The notes beneath the pieces are model-generated. The model saw only the letters and a program-made list of their open reading frames with translations, was not told the origin of the DNA and did no database searches. From Rhizobium glycinendophyticum (GTDB lineage: Bacteria; Pseudomonadota; Alphaproteobacteria; Rhizobiales; Rhizobiaceae), in the NCBI RefSeq assembly GCF_006443685.1, contig NZ_VFYP01000001.1, positions 2,914,001 through 2,978,000 of the forward strand: a DNA stretch of 64,000 nucleotides, in the 5' to 3' direction. Numbering within the stretch: position 1 is the stretch's first letter; every line of letters starts with the position of its first letter. This document shows positions 1,480-8,033 of the stretch, piece after piece. The translations under genes were made by a program, and so were the position numbers.

Positions 1480-1632
1480 GGCATCAATCCTGTGCTGCGC
1501 TGTTCTGTGTCATGTAGTCAGCCGGGCGCGGTGACCCAAGAGGTGACGATAATAAATTATAACCACTTCTTATGTTTTCGCTTTGTTCACATTTCACTGG
1601 CACTGATCGGCCATTCTGAACTAGGGTCTCCC

Positions 1633-2145
1633 ATGACTTCCACGATTCGCATCATCGGCATAGATCCGGGCCTGCGCCGCTGCGGCTGGGGCGTCATCGA
1701 GACGCTCGGCAACTCCCTGCGCTTCGTCGCCTCAGGCACCGTGACCTCTGACGGCGACATGGACCTTGCCTCGCGCCTGTGCCAGTTGCATGACGGCCTT
1801 TCCGAGGTCGTTCATGCCTATAAGCCGGACGAAGCAGCTGTCGAACAAACCTTCGTTAACAAGGACGCCGTTGCCACCCTGAAGCTCGGCCAGGCTCGCG
1901 GCATCGCCATGCTCGTCCCCGCCCGTGCCGGCCTGCGCGTTGCGGAATACGCGCCGAATGCCGTGAAGAAGGCAGTTATCGGCGTGGGTCACGGCGAAAA
2001 GGCGCAGATCCACATGATGCTGAAGATCCTGATGCCCAAGGCCGAATTCAAGGGCAACGACGCCGCCGACGCACTCGCAATCGCCATCTGCCACGCCCAC
2101 AACCGCGGCGGGGAGCGCATGCGCAAGGTGCTGGCCTCCGCCTGA
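1633..2145 (+). CDS. ruvC: Crossover junction endodeoxyribonuclease RuvC
   Basis: A 170-residue Holliday junction resolvase, normal length for the family. It cuts symmetrically across junctions that RuvA and RuvB have bound and moved. The acidic active site is intact: Asp11 in GIDPG, Glu71 in AAVEQTF, and Asp143/Asp146 in GNDAADALA. The ATG at 1633 was chosen because it gives the conserved short N-terminus (IRIIGIDPG); an open frame extends upstream without coding character. It is the first gene of the ruv locus, but ruvA does not follow directly: a VapBC module begins 55 bases downstream. Confidence 0.98.
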
Positions 2146-2151
2146 TTTGTT

Positions 2152-2199
2152 CTTGACTTGTTCCACTTCCTCCCTTAAGTAATACCGAAGAGGTATTAC
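2152..2199 (+). promoter_or_regulatory. Promoter and putative autoregulatory operator of the first VapBC module
   Basis: CTTGAC (2152-2157), a 17-base spacer and TTAAGT (2175-2180) make a plausible rhizobial sigma-70 promoter in the 55 bases between ruvC and vapB1. It is followed by a perfect inverted repeat, GTAATACC (2179-2186) and GGTATTAC (2192-2199), with a 5-base centre. The repeat covers the start region and the AAGAGG ribosome-binding site. VapB-type antitoxins usually bind such repeats with their toxin to autoregulate. The promoter and operator roles are inferred. Confidence 0.55.
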
Positions 2200-2200
2200 C

Positions 2201-2461
2201 ATGCGCGTCACAGAAAAAGGCCAAGTCACCATCCCTAAGGACATCCGCGATCGGCTCGACATCAAGCCGGGATCGAACGTCGATTTCGTTGTGGCTGAGG
2301 ACGGCGTCATGCTGGTCAAGAACGGCGATACCAGCGATGCGTTCAAGGACTTCGACGCCTGGGCGAGAAGTGTCGAAGGGATTTTCGATACCAATGGCAT
2401 GACCGCAAACGAATATGTCGATTGGCTGCGAGGACCGCGTGATGACCTCGACCATCATTGA
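2201..2461 (+). CDS. AbrB/MazE-fold antitoxin, VapB type (module 1)
   Basis: An 86-residue protein. Residues 1-45 (EKGQVTIPKDIRDRL, then IKPGSNVDF) form a swapped-hairpin AbrB/SpoVT DNA-binding domain. The rest is an acidic and aromatic tail of the kind that binds and blocks a PIN toxin. Its last 20 bases overlap the downstream PIN-domain gene, the standard antitoxin-toxin arrangement. It should neutralise VapC1 and repress its own promoter, where an inverted repeat sits over the start region. What is unusual is its position between ruvC and ruvA. It shares only the general AbrB pattern with the antitoxin of module 2. Confidence 0.9.
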   Translation: MRVTEKGQVTIPKDIRDRLDIKPGSNVDFVVAEDGVMLVKNGDTSDAFKDFDAWARSVEGIFDTNGMTANEYVDWLRGPRDDLDHH

Positions 2462-2861
2462 CACCACTGCGCTGATTGATGTGCTCGGGCCAGATAGTGC
2501 GACGCGGGCGTGGTCAGTCAGCGCAATGCGCCGCTGCTTTGAGGAGGGTCCGCTGGTGATCAACCCGGTAATATGGTCGGAGTTGGCTGCATCGCCGTTG
2601 AGCGAGCAACAGCTCAGCCAGGCGCTCGATTGGCTCGACTTGAAGAAAGAACCCTTGTCATACGAAGTAGCCTTCCGCGCAGGCAAGGCGCATCTGTTCT
2701 ACCGACGGAACGGCGGGCAGCGCGAGCGCACATTGCCGGACTTCTTCATCGGTGCTCATGCCGCCGTGCGGTCTCATCGCCTTCTGACAAGAGATGCAGC
2801 GCGCTACCGCAGCTACTTCCCGGATATCGATATCATCTCCCCAGAAACCCATCCTCTTTAA
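2442..2861 (+). CDS. PIN-domain toxin, VapC type (module 1)
   Basis: A 139-residue PIN-domain ribonuclease. All four expected acidic residues are present: Asp7 (IIDTTALID), Glu47 (IWSELAA), Asp100 (LPDFFIGAH) and Asp118 (LTRDAARY), so the toxin looks intact. VapC proteins are Mg-dependent RNases that cut tRNA or rRNA when free of antitoxin. ATG 2442 gives the standard N-terminus and a 20-base overlap with vapB1; an in-frame ATG at 2415 would add nine atypical residues. The stop lies 17 bases before the ruvA start, so ruvA is probably read from the same transcript. Confidence 0.88.
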
Positions 2862-2878
2862 CGCGACGGACGCTTCCC

Positions 2879-3496
2879 ATGATCGGCAAACTCAAAGGCA
2901 CTATCGACGAGATCGGCGACGATTACGTGCTCGTCGACGTCCACGGCGTCTGCTACGTCGCCCATTGCTCGTCGCGTACCCTGTCGCGCATCGGCTCGGC
3001 CGGCGAAGCGGTCGTGCTGTTCATCGAGACCTATGTGCGCGAAGACCAGCTGAAACTCTTCGGCTTCATGAGCGCGCTGGAGCGCGAATGGTTCAACCTC
3101 CTGCAGAGCGTCCAGGGTGTCGGCGCCAAGGTGGCGCTCGCCGTACTCTCGACCCTCACGCCGTCGGAACTCGCCAACGCGATTGCCCTGCAGGACAAGG
3201 CCGCCATCTCCCGCGCCCCCGGCGTCGGCCCCAAGGTGGCGCTGCGCCTCGTCACCGAACTGAAGAACAAGGCCCCCGCCTTCGCCGGCGAAGCTGCAGC
3301 CAATATCGGCCTCAAGCAGGAACTCGGCGAAGGCGTCGCCTCCGCTCCTGTCGCCGATGCCGTCTCGGCGCTCACCAATCTCGGTTATTCCCGAGACCAG
3401 GCAGCCAATGCCATAGCCGCAGCGCTGAAGAATGGCGGCGAAGGGGTCGATAGCGCCAAGCTGATCCGGTTGGGGCTGAAGGAGCTATCGCGGTAG
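2879..3496 (+). CDS. ruvA: Holliday junction branch migration protein RuvA
   Basis: A 205-residue protein of normal length. RuvA tetramers bind the open four-way junction and load RuvB. Visible parts are the N-terminal OB fold ([12 protein letters not shown], residues 1-65), two helix-hairpin-helix motifs ([16 protein letters not shown] and [16 protein letters not shown]), a flexible Ala-rich linker, and the C-terminal RuvB-binding domain ([19 protein letters not shown]). ATG 2879 gives the canonical N-terminus. It starts 17 bases after vapC1 and is separated from ruvB by a second VapBC module, so RuvA supply may depend on transcription through the first module. Confidence 0.98.
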
Positions 3497-3499
3497 GAA

Positions 3500-3551
3500 T
3501 TGGTCGATAGACGAAATACTGCTATGCTTCTCGTAAGAATTCTTTGACGAG
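3500..3551 (+). promoter_or_regulatory. Promoter and putative operator of the second VapBC module
   Basis: TTGGTC (3500-3505), 17 bases, then TATGCT (3523-3528) resembles a sigma-70 promoter in the 62 bases between ruvA and vapB2. Just after it come CTCGT (3530-3534), the perfect palindrome AAGAATTCTT (3535-3544) and ACGAG (3547-3551), a nested inverted repeat that ends in the GAGG ribosome-binding site. Its sequence is unrelated to the module 1 repeat. The operator role is inferred. Confidence 0.5.
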
Positions 3552-3558
3552 GTAAGAC

Positions 3559-3843
3559 ATGGGTGCCTTTACCACGATGACCTCCAAAGGTCAGATCACG
3601 ATCCCGAGCGAAGTGCGCGAAGAGCTGAAGCTCGAGCCGGGAACACGCTTCTATGTCTCTGCACGTAACGGTCAGGTCGTGGCGATCCCGAAAAACATCA
3701 GGCTCGCAGATTTGGCTGGCATCCTCGGCACTCCCCCGTCCGGCGTCAGCCTGTCCATCGAAGAGATGGACGAGGCTATAGCCAAGGCGGTGTCCGAAGA
3801 CGACGAGCGGATCAAACGCGGATGGTCGGAGACGCAGGTGTGA
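3559..3843 (+). CDS. AbrB/MazE-fold antitoxin, VapB type (module 2)
   Basis: A 94-residue protein with an AbrB-type DNA-binding domain at residues 5-50 (TMTSKGQITIPSEVREEL, then LEPGTRFYV). The acidic C-terminal tail (SIEEMDEAIAKAVSEDDERIKRGW) is typical of the toxin-binding segment of VapB proteins. The ATG at 3559 follows a GAGG site by six bases. The stop codon overlaps the most likely start of the PIN toxin gene. Role: neutralises VapC2 and probably represses its own operon through the nested repeat upstream. It lies between ruvA and ruvB and differs clearly in sequence from VapB1. Confidence 0.9.
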   Translation: MGAFTTMTSKGQITIPSEVREELKLEPGTRFYVSARNGQVVAIPKNIRLADLAGILGTPPSGVSLSIEEMDEAIAKAVSEDDERIKRGWSETQV

Positions 3844-4235
3844 TTGGCATCGATACCAATATTCTGGTTCGATTTCTGGTTGACGACGACCCCACCCAGA
3901 ACGCTTTGGCGCGCAGTTTCCTTTCAGCAAAAACGGCCGAGGACCCGGCCTATGTCAGTGCAATCGTCATCGCGGAAACCGTCTGGATCCTGCACAACAC
4001 GATGAAATACCAGATGTCCACCGTGGTCGAGCTTCTTCAAAGCCTCCTAGCGGCAGATGGCCTCGTCATCGAATACACGGAAGAACTCGACGCCCTGCTG
4101 AGCACCGGCCAACCCCTGGCCGATCTGGCGGACCACCTGATCGCGTGGGCGGCAAAACGTGCGGGAGCCCGCACAACTCTGACCTTCGACAAACGCGCCG
4201 CCTCTCGCGTGCCCGGCATGGAACTTCTCGCATGA
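3840..4235 (+). CDS. PIN-domain toxin, VapC type (module 2)
   Basis: A 131-residue PIN-domain RNase with the complete acidic set: Asp5 (GIDTNILVR), Glu46 (IAETVW), Asp98 (LADHLIAWA) and Asp117 (TFDKRAA). GTG 3840 was preferred because it overlaps the vapB2 stop (GTGA), has GGAG eight bases upstream and gives the usual VapC N-terminus; ATG 3822 would add six residues. The stop codon overlaps the ruvB start as ATGA, so ruvB translation is probably coupled to that of the toxin. It resembles VapC1 only in the catalytic motifs. Confidence 0.88.
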
Positions 4236-5272
4236 TGACCAACAACCCCATCCTGACCCCGGAAAAGCGTGGCGAAGACCTGGACGCGGCACTGCGCCCG
4301 CAGACGCTCGACGACTTCACCGGCCAGGCGGAGGCGCGCGCCAATCTGAAGATCTTCATCGAGGCGGCGAAGAACCGCGGTGAGGCACTGGACCACGTAC
4401 TCTTCGTCGGCCCGCCCGGCCTCGGCAAGACGACGCTCGCCCAGATCATGGCCAAAGAGCTCGGTGTCAACTTCCGCTCGACCTCCGGCCCGGTCATTGC
4501 CAAGGCCGGCGATCTCGCCGCACTTCTAACCAATCTCGAAGAGCGCGATGTGCTCTTCATCGACGAAATCCATCGCCTGAGCCCCGCCGTCGAGGAAATC
4601 CTCTATCCGGCCATGGAGGATTTCCAGCTCGACCTGATCATCGGTGAAGGCCCGGCCGCCCGCTCGGTGAAGATCGACCTGTCGAAATTCACCCTCGTTG
4701 CCGCCACCACCCGCCTTGGCCTGCTGACGACGCCGCTGCGCGACCGCTTCGGCATTCCCGTGCGGCTCAATTTTTACACCGTCGAAGAACTGGAATCGAT
4801 CGTCCGCCGTGGCGCCCGCCTGTTGAACCTGCCGATGACGGAGGACGGCGCCCGCGAAGTCGCCCGCCGCGCCCGTGGCACGCCTCGCATCGCCGGCCGC
4901 CTGCTCCGCCGCGTCCGGGACTTCGCCGAAGTCGCCCGCGCCGAGGCTGTCACCCGCGAGATCGCCGACGAGGCGCTGACGCGCCTCAACGTCGACAATA
5001 TGGGCCTCGACCAGCTCGACATGCGCTACCTCTCGATGATCGCCGTCAATTTCGGCGGCGGCCCGGTCGGCATCGAAACGATTGCCGCCGGTCTCTCCGA
5101 GCCACGCGACGCCATCGAGGACATTATCGAGCCCTACATGATCCAGCAGGGCTTCATTCAGCGCACCCCACGCGGCCGTGTTTTGACCGCAAACGCATGG
5201 AAGCATCTGGGAATGCAGCCACCCAAGGATCTGGAGGCGGCGCAATTCCGGCTGACGCTCGAGGACGACTGA
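4232..5272 (+). CDS. ruvB: Holliday junction branch migration DNA helicase RuvB
   Basis: A 346-residue AAA+ motor of typical length. RuvB hexamers pump DNA through the RuvA-bound junction. Walker A GPPGLGKT lies at residues 60-67, Walker [10 protein letters not shown] with Asp111/Glu112, then sensor 1 (VAATTRLG), the arginine-finger region (LRDRFGI), and the C-terminal winged-helix domain ([13 protein letters not shown]). ATG 4232 is shared with the vapC2 stop in an ATGA overlap and gives the standard N-terminus. The stop abuts the start of the Tat-signal phosphoesterase gene, so the operon continues downstream. Confidence 0.98.
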
Positions 5273-6178
5273 ATGATCACACGACGGGGACTATTGAAGC
5301 TCTTCGGAGCCGGGTTCCTGAGCCTGATCGCAACAGCAGCCTATCCCTTCACGGAGGTTTTCAGGCGCCCAGAAATACGCCGCTACGCCGTGACTCCGAA
5401 GAATTGGCCAACGGAATTGAAGCTGCGTGTGGCCGTGTTGGCGGACTTTCACGCCTGCGAACCGTGGATGAGTCGCTCTCGGATCGAGGACGTCTGCGCC
5501 ATGGCGAATGCGCTGGACCCGGACATTTGCCTGCTTCTCGGGGACTATGCTGCGGGAACCAATGTCGTCAGCGACTACGTCGATGCGGTGGACTGGGCGG
5601 CCGCACTTGCTACCCTTCGAGCTCCGCTCGGCATCCATGCGATCCTCGGCAATCACGATTATTGGGAGGATCTTACCTTTCAGCGCGATCCCTCGGCAGG
5701 CAACATTGCCACCAGGGCCCTGCAGCAGGTGGGCATCGCGACCTACGTGAACGAGGCTGTGCGGCTGGAAAAGGATGGCCAGGCATTCTGGATAGCAGGC
5801 CTTGGCGATCAGATGGCCTTGAGGCCTGGCAAGCACTTCAACCGCAAGACCATGACCGGAATCGATGATCTGCCCTCCACTATGCGCATTGTAACCGACG
5901 ACGCGCCCGTCATCCTGATGGCGCACGAACCCGATATCTTCCCTCAAGTCACCGAGCGCGTCGCCCTGACGCTCTGCGGCCATACACATGGTGGTCAGAT
6001 CAATCTGTTCGGCTGGCATCCCGTCGCCGCATCGCGCGGCTCCTGGCGATACCCGGGCGGCCACTTTCATGAGCGAGACCGCCATCTCATCGTCTCGCGT
6101 GGTCTCGGCTGTTCGTTCCTGCCAATTCGCGTCGGTGTCAGACCGGAAATCCTCCTGCTAGAATTGGGTTCCGCCTGA
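5273..6178 (+). CDS. Tat-exported metallophosphoesterase (YkuE-like)
   Basis: A 301-residue protein with a twin-arginine signal (TRRGLLKLFGAGFL) and a hydrophobic segment to about residue 24, so it should be exported folded. The calcineurin-like metal-binding motifs follow in order: ADFHACEPW, GDYAAG, GNHDYWE, AHEPD and GHTHGGQ. Members of this group hydrolyse phosphoesters, and some act in the envelope on lipid-linked substrates; the substrate here is unknown. It begins on the base after the ruvB stop and its own stop overlaps the next start (TGATG), so it belongs to the ruvB transcript. A repair link is not implied by the domain. Confidence 0.9.
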   Translation: MITRRGLLKLFGAGFLSLIATAAYPFTEVFRRPEIRRYAVTPKNWPTELKLRVAVLADFHACEPWMSRSRIEDVCAMANALDPDICLLLGDYAAGTNVVSDYVDAVDWAAALATLRAPLGIHAILGNHDYWEDLTFQRDPSAGNIATRALQQVGIATYVNEAVRLEKDGQAFWIAGLGDQMALRPGKHFNRKTMTGIDDLPSTMRIVTDDAPVILMAHEPDIFPQVTERVALTLCGHTHGGQINLFGWHPVAASRGSWRYPGGHFHERDRHLIVSRGLGCSFLPIRVGVRPEILLLELGSA

Positions 6179-6687
6179 TGTCCAAACGCACCCTCATCAC
6201 CATCAAGGACGGCAAGCGGCGCTTCAACCACCGCATCGCCGGCCTCGCCTTTCGCGATGGTCACGTCCTCGTCCACCGCGCCACCCACGAGACCTTCTGG
6301 ACCTTTCCGGGCGGTCGGGCCGAGATCGGCGAGACGTCTACGGAGACGCTGATACGAGAGATGCAGGAGGAACTCGGCGTCGAGGCCGTCGTCGGCCCCC
6401 TCCTCTGGATCGTCGAGAATTTCTTCGACTACGAGGGCAAGGCGTGGCACGAACTCGGCTTTTACTACCGCATGGAGATCCCGGATCACTTCCCCTTCCA
6501 TACCTCTGACATCGTCCACCGCAACGAGGACGGCAAGAACAGCCTCGAATTCAAATGGGTACCGGCAACGCGGCAAGCCCTGACCGCGCTCGATATCCCG
6601 CCTTATTTCATCGCCGACGAAATCGAGACCCTGCCGACCGCGCCGAAGCACATTGTCTGGCACGACGGAGACCTGGATACGCCATGA
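6178..6687 (+). CDS. NUDIX hydrolase
   Basis: A 169-residue NUDIX-fold pyrophosphohydrolase. The NUDIX box is complete: GGRAEIGET, then REMQEELGVE (about residues 44-67). NUDIX enzymes split a nucleoside diphosphate linked to another group, for example damaged nucleotides, NADH or nucleotide sugars; the substrate cannot be told from the sequence. The start ATG shares a base with the upstream stop (TGATG), and the stop overlaps the following DinB-family start (ATGA). This is one of four closely packed genes after ruvB. Confidence 0.93.
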   Translation: MSKRTLITIKDGKRRFNHRIAGLAFRDGHVLVHRATHETFWTFPGGRAEIGETSTETLIREMQEELGVEAVVGPLLWIVENFFDYEGKAWHELGFYYRMEIPDHFPFHTSDIVHRNEDGKNSLEFKWVPATRQALTALDIPPYFIADEIETLPTAPKHIVWHDGDLDTP

Positions 6688-7250
6688 CCAATGCCCTCCG
6701 GTTCATTCGCAAGCTCGCTTTTGCCAATATGCTGGCCAACGACCGGCTGCACGAGGCGGTTTCCGCCCTTAAGCCCGGCGAATTCGAGGCGCCGCGAACC
6801 GGCTTCTTTCCGTCGCTGGTCGCAACCCTCAATCACATCCTGATCATCGACTGGTTCTACATCGACGCCCTGGAGGGTGGCGACCTTGGCCCGAGAGCCT
6901 GGCAGAACGCGGTGCCATACTCCGACGCAGCCGAACTCCGGGCCGCGCAATTGGCATCCGACCGTCGCCTGTTGACCTTGTGCCGAAAGCTTGGGGACGA
7001 AGATCTCGGACGGCCGACCCGCGTCCACCGCACGGGCCGCATTCAGGTGGAGCGCACGGACGACGTGCTCTCCCATCTCTTCCAGCATCAGACCCATCAT
7101 CGCGGCCAGGCGCATGCCATGCTGTCCGGCACCAGCGTCAAGCCGCCGCAACTGGACGAATTCATCGTCGCTGATGATGCGGCGAGCCGCGTCGACGTGA
7201 TGGAGAGGTTGGGGTTGACGGAAGCAGACGTGATGGATCTGGACAGGTGA
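6684..7250 (+). CDS. DinB/YfiT-family metal-binding four-helix protein
   Basis: A 188-residue protein with the DinB pattern: an N-terminal helix (FIRKLAFANMLANDRLHEAV), a metal-ligand histidine in LNHILIIDWFYIDAL (about residues 51-65), and the paired histidines of LFQHQTHHRGQAHAML (about 132-147). The three histidines form the usual divalent-metal site. DinB-like proteins include thiol-dependent transferases and DNA-damage-induced proteins, and the exact activity is unknown. The start overlaps the NUDIX stop as ATGA. It is the last gene of the ruvB-led chain. Confidence 0.88.
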   Translation: MTNALRFIRKLAFANMLANDRLHEAVSALKPGEFEAPRTGFFPSLVATLNHILIIDWFYIDALEGGDLGPRAWQNAVPYSDAAELRAAQLASDRRLLTLCRKLGDEDLGRPTRVHRTGRIQVERTDDVLSHLFQHQTHHRGQAHAMLSGTSVKPPQLDEFIVADDAASRVDVMERLGLTEADVMDLDR

Positions 7251-7796: not shown

Positions 7797-8033
7797 CAAG
7801 CCCGTGATCGACCCCGAAAGTAACGCCTTCTTAACCATAATAGGGTCTTACTCCGGAGTGGGAGTTTGTGCACCGCACGCCTTCCTTTGACCAAATTTTC
7901 AGCCCAGAAGGCATTCTGGGAGCTTAGGCGGGATAGGGATGTCGGCGGCAGCGACCGCATTCTTCCAGCAGCACAGCTCATGTCGCCGCCCGGTCCTCTC
8001 ACCGGGCGTTTGGATTTCGGGGATTTTTAGGCG
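7797..8033 (+). promoter_or_regulatory. tolQ leader region with a strong hairpin
   Basis: This 237-base non-coding stretch separates ybgC from tolQ. CGCCCGGT (7987-7994) and ACCGGGCG (8001-8008) form a perfect 8-bp stem with a 6-base loop, 25 bases before the tolQ start and without a T run. A second possible hairpin lies near 7895-7920. The region also has an AT-rich CATAAT patch near 7830 that could be a -10 element. It is probably the tolQ promoter and leader. Confidence 0.35.

Follow-up and report, generated by a model that had tools for sequence, protein, structure and literature searches.

In Escherichia coli, the type II toxin–antitoxin pair of dinB-yafNO lies beside a DNA-repair gene and is read from a LexA-controlled promoter as well as from an autoregulated one, which makes it a measured precedent for a toxin–antitoxin pair read from a promoter of the SOS response (PMC2814082). 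In Rhizobium leguminosarum 3841, a vapBC pair (RL3987–RL3988) is positioned directly upstream of ruvAB and was connected with root attachment by insertion sequencing (INSeq; PMC11406972). The subject of this study is the ruv operon of Rhizobium glycinendophyticum, contained in a window of 64,000 nucleotides (nt) (contig NZ_VFYP01000001.1, positions 2,914,001 to 2,978,000 of the forward strand), in which the same kind of module stands directly before ruvA and another VapBC module separates ruvA from ruvB. Judged by the positions that modules occupy across the family, the ruv operon of the Rhizobiaceae appears to offer two fixed docking positions for VapBC cassettes, slot 1 in the ruvC–ruvA gap and slot 2 in the ruvA–ruvB gap. 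Each slot has its own VapC group, and a LexA box is conserved with the slot 1 module. The reading that best accommodates these data, with a probability of about 0.6, is that LexA-linked VapBC cassettes are swapped by recombination through the ruv flanks.

The locus differs from the described systems in several respects. The available portion of the R. leguminosarum account concerns one module and does not discuss a LexA box, slot 2, turnover, or coupling; it lists vapB, vapC, ruvA, and ruvB as all needed for attachment, with vapC, ruvA, and ruvB sharing one INSeq class and vapB assigned to another (PMC11406972). This pattern can be read as polarity on ruvAB resulting from co-transcription, although the authors do not say so in that portion. 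YafO is RelE-like and belongs to a single module downstream of dinB, whereas the modules described here are PIN-type VapBC pairs, occupy two gaps of the ruv operon, show type swapping, and have toxin tails that carry the likely start signal of the next gene. Sinorhizobium meliloti VapBC10 is likewise a rhizobial VapBC, reported as a working pair in which VapC10 cleaves tRNA-Ser, but its main text does not mention ruv (PMC10945364). The LexA-regulated ruvCAB of alphaproteobacteria has been described with no mention of a toxin–antitoxin module in the sections available, and a broad survey of type II toxin–antitoxin systems gave no hit for "ruv" (PMC2701414).

The adjacency of vap genes to ruvAB and the LexA sites at alphaproteobacterial ruvCAB are already in print; an earlier, sequence-only reading of the window had known of no described instance. 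Searches of open-licence papers in PubMed Central showed no account of a pair of slots, of type turnover, of vapBC headed by a LexA box, or of toxin tails that serve as ruv starts. What is new here is the LexA box heading an occupied slot 1, the coupling of vapC2 to ruvB, and the slot-specific groups with divergent types in close species. The vapBC40 module of Mycobacterium tuberculosis presumably also lies beside ruvC; no paper on it was found in the same literature.

VapBC Modules Recur at Two Positions in the ruv Operon

The order ruvC–vapBC1–ruvA–vapBC2–ruvB proposed from the sequence alone was borne out: coordinates and family models hold, and all genes lie on the plus strand (Pfam cut-offs, 23.6 bits for PIN and 24.7 bits for PF04014). 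The elements of the locus are as follows.

1574–1588, plus strand: weak LexA-like box, GTTT-N7-GTTC with a single mismatch, some 60 nt before ruvC (read directly)
1633–2145, plus strand: ruvC, Holliday junction resolvase (PF02075, 156 bits)
2149–2163, plus strand: exact LexA/SOS box GTTCTTGACTTGTTC, which begins with the 4th base past the end of ruvC (motif match and conservation)
2153–2158, plus strand: TTGACT within the LexA box, a possible −35 element of a putative promoter
2179–2199, plus strand: palindrome GTAATACC-N5-GGTATTAC directly before vapB1, a likely VapBC operator by its form and place (repeat search)
2201–2461, plus strand: vapB1, AbrB/MazE-type antitoxin (PF04014, 46.8 bits)
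2445–2861, plus strand: vapC1, PIN toxin with tail ISPETHP (PF01850, 29.4 bits; acids D7/E47/D100/D118)
2865–2871, plus strand: GACGGAC, likely ruvA ribosome-binding site, adjoining the vapC1 end (junction read directly)
2879–3496, plus strand: ruvA (TIGR00084, 192 bits)
3559–3843, plus strand: vapB2, AbrB/MazE-type antitoxin (PF04014, 35.9 bits)
3840–4235, plus strand: vapC2, PIN toxin of the second group with tail GMELLA (PF01850, 41.8 bits; acids D5/E46/D98/D117)
4220–4235, plus strand: vapC2 tail with the likely ruvB ribosome-binding site (GGAA, 4220–4223) and a 4-nt overlap with the ruvB start
4232–5272, plus strand: ruvB (PF05496, 267 bits)

In both modules, the AbrB/MazE (PF04014) antitoxin gene is located directly upstream of the toxin gene and overlaps it, by 17 nt in slot 1 and 4 nt in slot 2. 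The slot 1 module begins 55 nt after the ruvC stop and ends 17 nt before ruvA; the slot 2 module begins 62 nt after the ruvA stop and overlaps ruvB by 4 nt.

Modules were scored in several sets of loci. Of 63 genomes of the genus, 62 yielded a ruvA and form the genus set (loci L001–L062). The family set comprises 120 Rhizobiaceae loci, one from each of 105 genera plus 15 second members, after two of 107 sampled other genera (G155 and G157) had been left out; five loci in which no ruvC and two in which no ruvB was found were excluded from the slot classes, leaving 115 and 118 scorable loci for slots 1 and 2, respectively. A named set (L063–L142) repeats many genomes of the genus set, and totals over all loci count some genomes twice. 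From other families of the order, 50 of 101 genomes were examined; slot 1 could be scored in 46 of these loci and slot 2 in 42.

Within the genus, slot 1 is occupied in 42 of 62 loci, slot 2 in 47, and both in 33. VapBC accounts for all 42 long slot 1 gaps and for 47 of 49 long slot 2 gaps. Across the family set, 38 of 120 loci carry a module in slot 1 (one a tandem, L166) and 40 carry one in slot 2 (including L269, a tandem of two modules, and L217, with one module and a vapC fragment). Carriers of both include Rhizobium rosettiformans, R. rhizophilum, Peteryoungia aggregata, Agrobacterium albertimagni, and Ciceribacter selenitireducens; several A. tumefaciens loci and one A. pusense locus have neither. 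Beyond the family, a VapC1-type module occupies slot 1 in 3 of 46 scorable loci (L300, L335, and L337), and no slot 2 module was found in 42. Some ruvA–ruvB gaps of those families (L304, L333, L299, and L336) hold unrelated genes that by eye resemble acetyltransferases or membrane proteins.

The acidic PIN residues named in the sequence-only reading (Asp7/Glu47/Asp100/Asp118 and Asp5/Glu46/Asp98/Asp117) are all present in the window. Of 102 distinct VapC1 sequences, 100 retain all four catalytic acids, as do 102 of the 109 distinct VapC2 sequences; some of the exceptions are fragments. Two full-length VapC2 proteins (L215 and L228) have the fourth acid, D117, replaced by glycine. Median ratios of nonsynonymous to synonymous differences (pN/pS) within types, calculated from at most 60 pairs per type with slot 2 types 1 and 2 left out and pS near saturation, were 0.11–0.26 for VapC and 0.17–0.31 for VapB, compared to 0.03–0.18 for RuvA of the same genomes. 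VapC and VapB are therefore under purifying selection within types. Because the modules recur in genus and family, retain their catalytic acids, and show low pN/pS, the arrangement is attributable neither to chance nor to decay.

The sequence-only reading had itself named two outcomes that would speak against it. The first, that the arrangement is common and already described in the family, holds by half, in that it is common in the surveyed Rhizobiaceae while only the vapBC–ruvAB adjacency has been published. The second, decay in close relatives, mostly does not hold, but losses and remnants or broken copies do occur (L002, L013, L015, L024, L030, L061, L120, L126, and L130).

A PIN search of the whole genome returned 15 hits, and VapC1 was not among them, though it scores above the Pfam cut-off. 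Profile matches of the toxins in the PDB are weak; the PIN match is clear from Pfam. Farther along the window, positions 6178–7250, between ruvB and a thioesterase–tolQ–tolR-like block, are taken up by a NUDIX gene and a gene of the DinB family (PF05163).

A LexA Box Is Conserved with the Slot 1 Module

The LexA motif of alphaproteobacteria is reported as GTTC-N7-GTTC (PMC3323433). The stretch at 2149–2163 has exactly this form, which would place it in the LexA/SOS regulon and suggests a promoter there. Where slot 1 is occupied, the box follows immediately on the ruvC stop, and in 87 of 126 loci its first base is the 4th one past the stop. Within the genus, an exact box is present in 41 of 42 occupied ruvC–ruvA gaps and in none of 20 empty ones. 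The family set gives 37 of 38 occupied and 4 of 67 empty gaps, along with five of nine gaps with other content and the single antitoxin-only gap; in the named set, which overlaps the genus, the counts are 48 of 48 and 3 of 30. Shared ancestry was taken into account on a RuvA tree of 116 loci, where 8 supported independent pairs were obtained, on average 7.3 of which change in the same way and 0.0 in the opposite way (median p 0.016, range 0.008–0.125).

The box does not appear to be a general trait of the VapC1 family. That explanation was rejected, as none of ten VapC1 relatives outside ruv has a box within 500 base pairs (bp) upstream, nor does any of three loci checked separately (one of them the same gene). 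Some loci, including loci of other families (L307 and L336), have the box ahead of ruvA but no module, and for this reason the box may predate the module; it may be an older control element of ruvA, with the module placed between box and ruvA.

A weaker box, with one mismatch, is found in the 200 bp preceding ruvC in 106 of the 127 loci whose slot 1 is occupied (2 more have an exact one) and in 102 of the 115 whose slot 1 is empty (4 more have an exact one), counted over all loci; it occurs in 8.5% of base-shuffled stretches. The genome of the window has lexA, and a like box, TTTGTTCTTTATTTGTTCT, precedes a gene read as uvrA.

Module Types Turn Over between Close Species

Types were defined at 60% identity among the genus loci, which yielded four types of VapC1 (22, 14, 5, and 1 members) and seven of VapC2 (14, 11, 10, 5, 4, 2, and 1). 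When only loci whose ruvA DNA is at least 88% identical were paired, the VapC1 proteins were 40–50% identical in 61 of 135 pairs and 70–100% identical in the remaining 74, with none between; VapC2 identity was 30–50% in 88 of 149 pairs, 50–70% in 7, and 70–100% in 54. At 94–97% ruvA identity, the type differs in 9 of 20 slot 2 pairs and 0 of 3 slot 1 pairs, and at 91–94%, in 19 of 29 and 8 of 22, respectively.

Identity breaks sharply at the cassette edges. Between L048 and L052 it spans ruvC and the box, drops to background, and returns at the VapC1 tail, and in L025 and L028 the vapC2 tail is exactly shared by toxins that are 39% alike. A tree built from ruvC, ruvA, and a portion of ruvB requires 11 changes of slot 1 type (minimum 3; shuffled mean 17.3, range 14–20) and 19 of slot 2 type (minimum 6; shuffled mean 28.2, range 23–32). 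Since these counts lie between the minimum and the shuffled range, they indicate both inheritance and repeated change. The occupied or empty state requires 3 changes in slot 1 and 10 in slot 2.

Tandem modules provide a second view of the exchange. Two slot 2 tandems (L090 and L095, ruvA–ruvB gap 1568 bp) retain 40 and 42 nt of the ruvB start between the modules (97.5% and 97.6% identity), L090 also with a 16-nt match to the ruvA end (E 0.004); L269, the third of the three slot 2 tandems tested, shows neither. In L166, the ruvC–ruvA gap (1523 bp) contains two slot 1 modules that belong to different types, and an exact LexA box precedes each of them. The joint between them translates to LSGRLAKLVG, compared by eye to LSGRLAKLAG at the end of its own RuvC, while a BLASTN comparison of the joint with ruvC genes fell short of significance (7 of 100 shuffles scored as well). 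Taken together, the tandems point to recombination of ruv-flanked DNA rather than a self-moving cassette. The latter was rejected, as two genes fill each slot of the window, leaving no room for a recombinase, and ruvB fragments lie at two tandem joints; attC-like sites were not searched. As a separate observation, types of the two slots look nonrandomly paired in L001–L062, with type 0 accompanied by 2 in nine loci and type 1 by 1 in eight.

Toxin Ends Adjoin the Starts of ruvA and ruvB

In 131 of the 135 loci whose slot 2 contains just one module, the end of vapC2 runs into the ruvB start with an overlap of 4 nt, a count that includes some genomes twice. In the vapC2 tail, GGCATGGAACTTCTCGC, a GGAA sits 8 nt ahead of where ruvB begins, and the tail likely holds the ruvB ribosome-binding site. 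A closely similar segment precedes ruvB in L002, L013, L015, L024, and L061, all of which lack a full module and are read as module losses; the other loci with an empty slot 2 have no such segment. A MELL-form tail is found in 140 of 141 slot VapC2 proteins. For slot VapC1, the ISPETHP form is found in 114 of 128 and in none of ten relatives elsewhere.

On the slot 1 side, vapC1 stops 3 nt before GACGGAC in the window, and GACGGAC-like stretches also precede ruvA in several loci without a module. Slot 1 of L030 retains pieces of both module edges. Because edge pieces and tails are kept in loci that lack modules, part of the edge conservation may reflect selection on ruv start signals. Two other ruvC–ruvA gaps show modules in apparent decay: in L126 (232 bp), the box and palindrome are followed by a broken vapB1 start and then the toxin tail, and in L120 (764 bp), scored as antitoxin-only from its open reading frames, tblastn finds vapC1 in two frames, so that the toxin gene looks broken.

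Each Slot Has Its Own VapC Group

VapC1 and VapC2 fall into different VapC groups. The statement of the sequence-only reading that the modules are not recent duplicates is confirmed by this result, and recent duplication of one module was rejected. Profile searches covered 151 family genomes, with proximity to ruvA defined as within 2.5 kb. All 44 VapC1-profile hits of at least 170 bits were near ruvA, compared to 3 of 21 at 140–170 bits; with the VapC2 profile, the numbers were 49 of 49 at 120 bits or more, 2 of 3 at 100–120 bits, and 3 of 52 below 100 bits. On trees with ten outside relatives each, the distinction between slot and non-slot proteins requires one change for VapC1 and two to three for VapC2, with or without the toxin tail.

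Free-standing relatives of lower identity are found on other replicons. The best match in a plasmid collection, on a 4.6-Mb Shinella replicon (L366), proved to be another slot 1 of a ruv locus, and it has the box. A free-standing VapC2-like module is located at 7944–8393 of L362 (CP090106.1), a 3.7-Mb S. meliloti record labelled pSymB that carries lexA and whose label may be wrong.

Discussion

The exchange of LexA-linked cassettes through the ruv flanks is favored on the basis of their positions, the box, the gene overlaps, the slot-specific groups with intact active sites, the divergent types with sharp breakpoints, and the probable remnants of start signals. A corresponding mechanism can be outlined. 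Slot 1 would place a module between a LexA-box control region and ruvA; slot 2 places one between ruvA and ruvB, where the end of the toxin gene runs into the start of ruvB. The genes from vapBC1 to ruvA, and onward, would be transcribed under LexA and VapBC self-repression, and DNA damage would raise the slot 1 module and RuvAB together. Loss of antitoxin would free VapC, a translation-blocking RNase, leading to RNA cleavage and a short growth arrest during recombinational repair. Incoming DNA would replace modules by homologous recombination through the ruv flanks, which are conserved. That the modules are induced in the SOS response, toxic, and of benefit to the cell is predicted from sequence.

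Several observations weigh against this reading. Most family loci have no module in a given slot, so the module is dispensable, and RuvA is under tighter constraint than either VapC or VapB. Box and module are imperfectly linked: the box occurs without a module in the empty slots counted above (4 of 67 and 3 of 30), L238 has an occupied slot 1 with no box and L045 one with a changed base, and the three slot 1 modules of other families (L300, L335, and L337) lack an exact box. The one-mismatch box upstream of ruvC is equally common when slot 1 is empty. The window contains GTTCN7GTTC twice, with 2.1 occurrences expected; since about two arise per window by chance, a match in a single genome proves nothing, and the evidence lies in conservation. 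A strict sigma-70 promoter scan found none at the box, and the repeat search detected no operator palindrome before vapB2. Finally, the VapC profiles were built from slot members and are biased toward them, and the tree used to count swaps is a quick tree of the flanking ruv genes themselves, with 20 of 59 forks open.

The alternative that survives best is that the modules are selfish addiction elements for which the ruv operon is a good harbor, its conserved flanks admitting DNA and the joint between toxin and ruv start making clean loss costly, with no gain for the cell. This is a tentative option, considerably less probable than cassettes under LexA linkage. It would account for the repeated change of type and occupancy, the lower content of guanine plus cytosine in the slots (58.4% and 55.3%, compared to approximately 63% for ruv), the tandems with a ruvB fragment, and the presence of modules in only 38 of 115 and 40 of 118 scorable family loci. 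On its own, however, it leaves unexplained why the slot 1 module stands behind a LexA box in nearly all cases, and why each slot draws on its own VapC group rather than on any VapC of the genome, in which PIN hits number 15. The suggestion of the sequence-only reading that selection links the toxins to recombination is strengthened by the same box and groups and by the joining of toxin 3′ ends to likely ruvA and ruvB start signals; its other suggestion, addiction that would protect the locus, is a conjecture, and what did not stand is the picture of one odd locus.

It is unlikely that the gaps of ruvCAB are simply permissive, tolerating many insertions of which VapBC is one passenger and leaving the LexA box upstream as an old control of ruvA. 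Insertions of other kinds do occur, as 17 of 42 scorable ruvA–ruvB gaps in other families are longer than 300 bp, with no module in any of them, 10 of 48 slot 1 and 14 of 54 slot 2 gaps of at least 200 bp in the family set lack a complete VapBC pair, and Vibrio ruvCAB is reported to be split by inserted genes as well (PMC3323433). Within the genus, in contrast, nearly every long gap holds VapBC of the slot-specific group, boxes are rare in empty slots, and purifying selection acts within types. Least probable is anti-phage abortive infection, in which toxins would diversify under phage counter-toxins, rare types gain, and old types persist across species, with LexA or DNA damage as a trigger: the deep types shared across species, with their bimodal VapC identity, agree with it, but the four Vap proteins match no PADLOC family at E 0.001, and tblastn with the window VapC1 and VapC2 found no match in 50,697 phage records at E 1e-5.

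As a more speculative extension, the ruv operon could carry a multi-allelic toxin–antitoxin locus, with old types kept across species by diversifying selection at two fixed sites, turned on in the SOS response and swapped by the recombination that the ruv genes serve. The role of chromosomal toxin–antitoxin modules is an old open question, and here the same two sites have been filled, emptied, and refilled with divergent types in many species. For annotation and knockout studies, it follows that insertions in vapB or vapC may silence ruvAB. More generally, natural type swaps and empty sites beside a DNA-damage box and the start signals of repair genes allow a comparison of whether, under DNA damage, such modules help, harm, or merely ride along.

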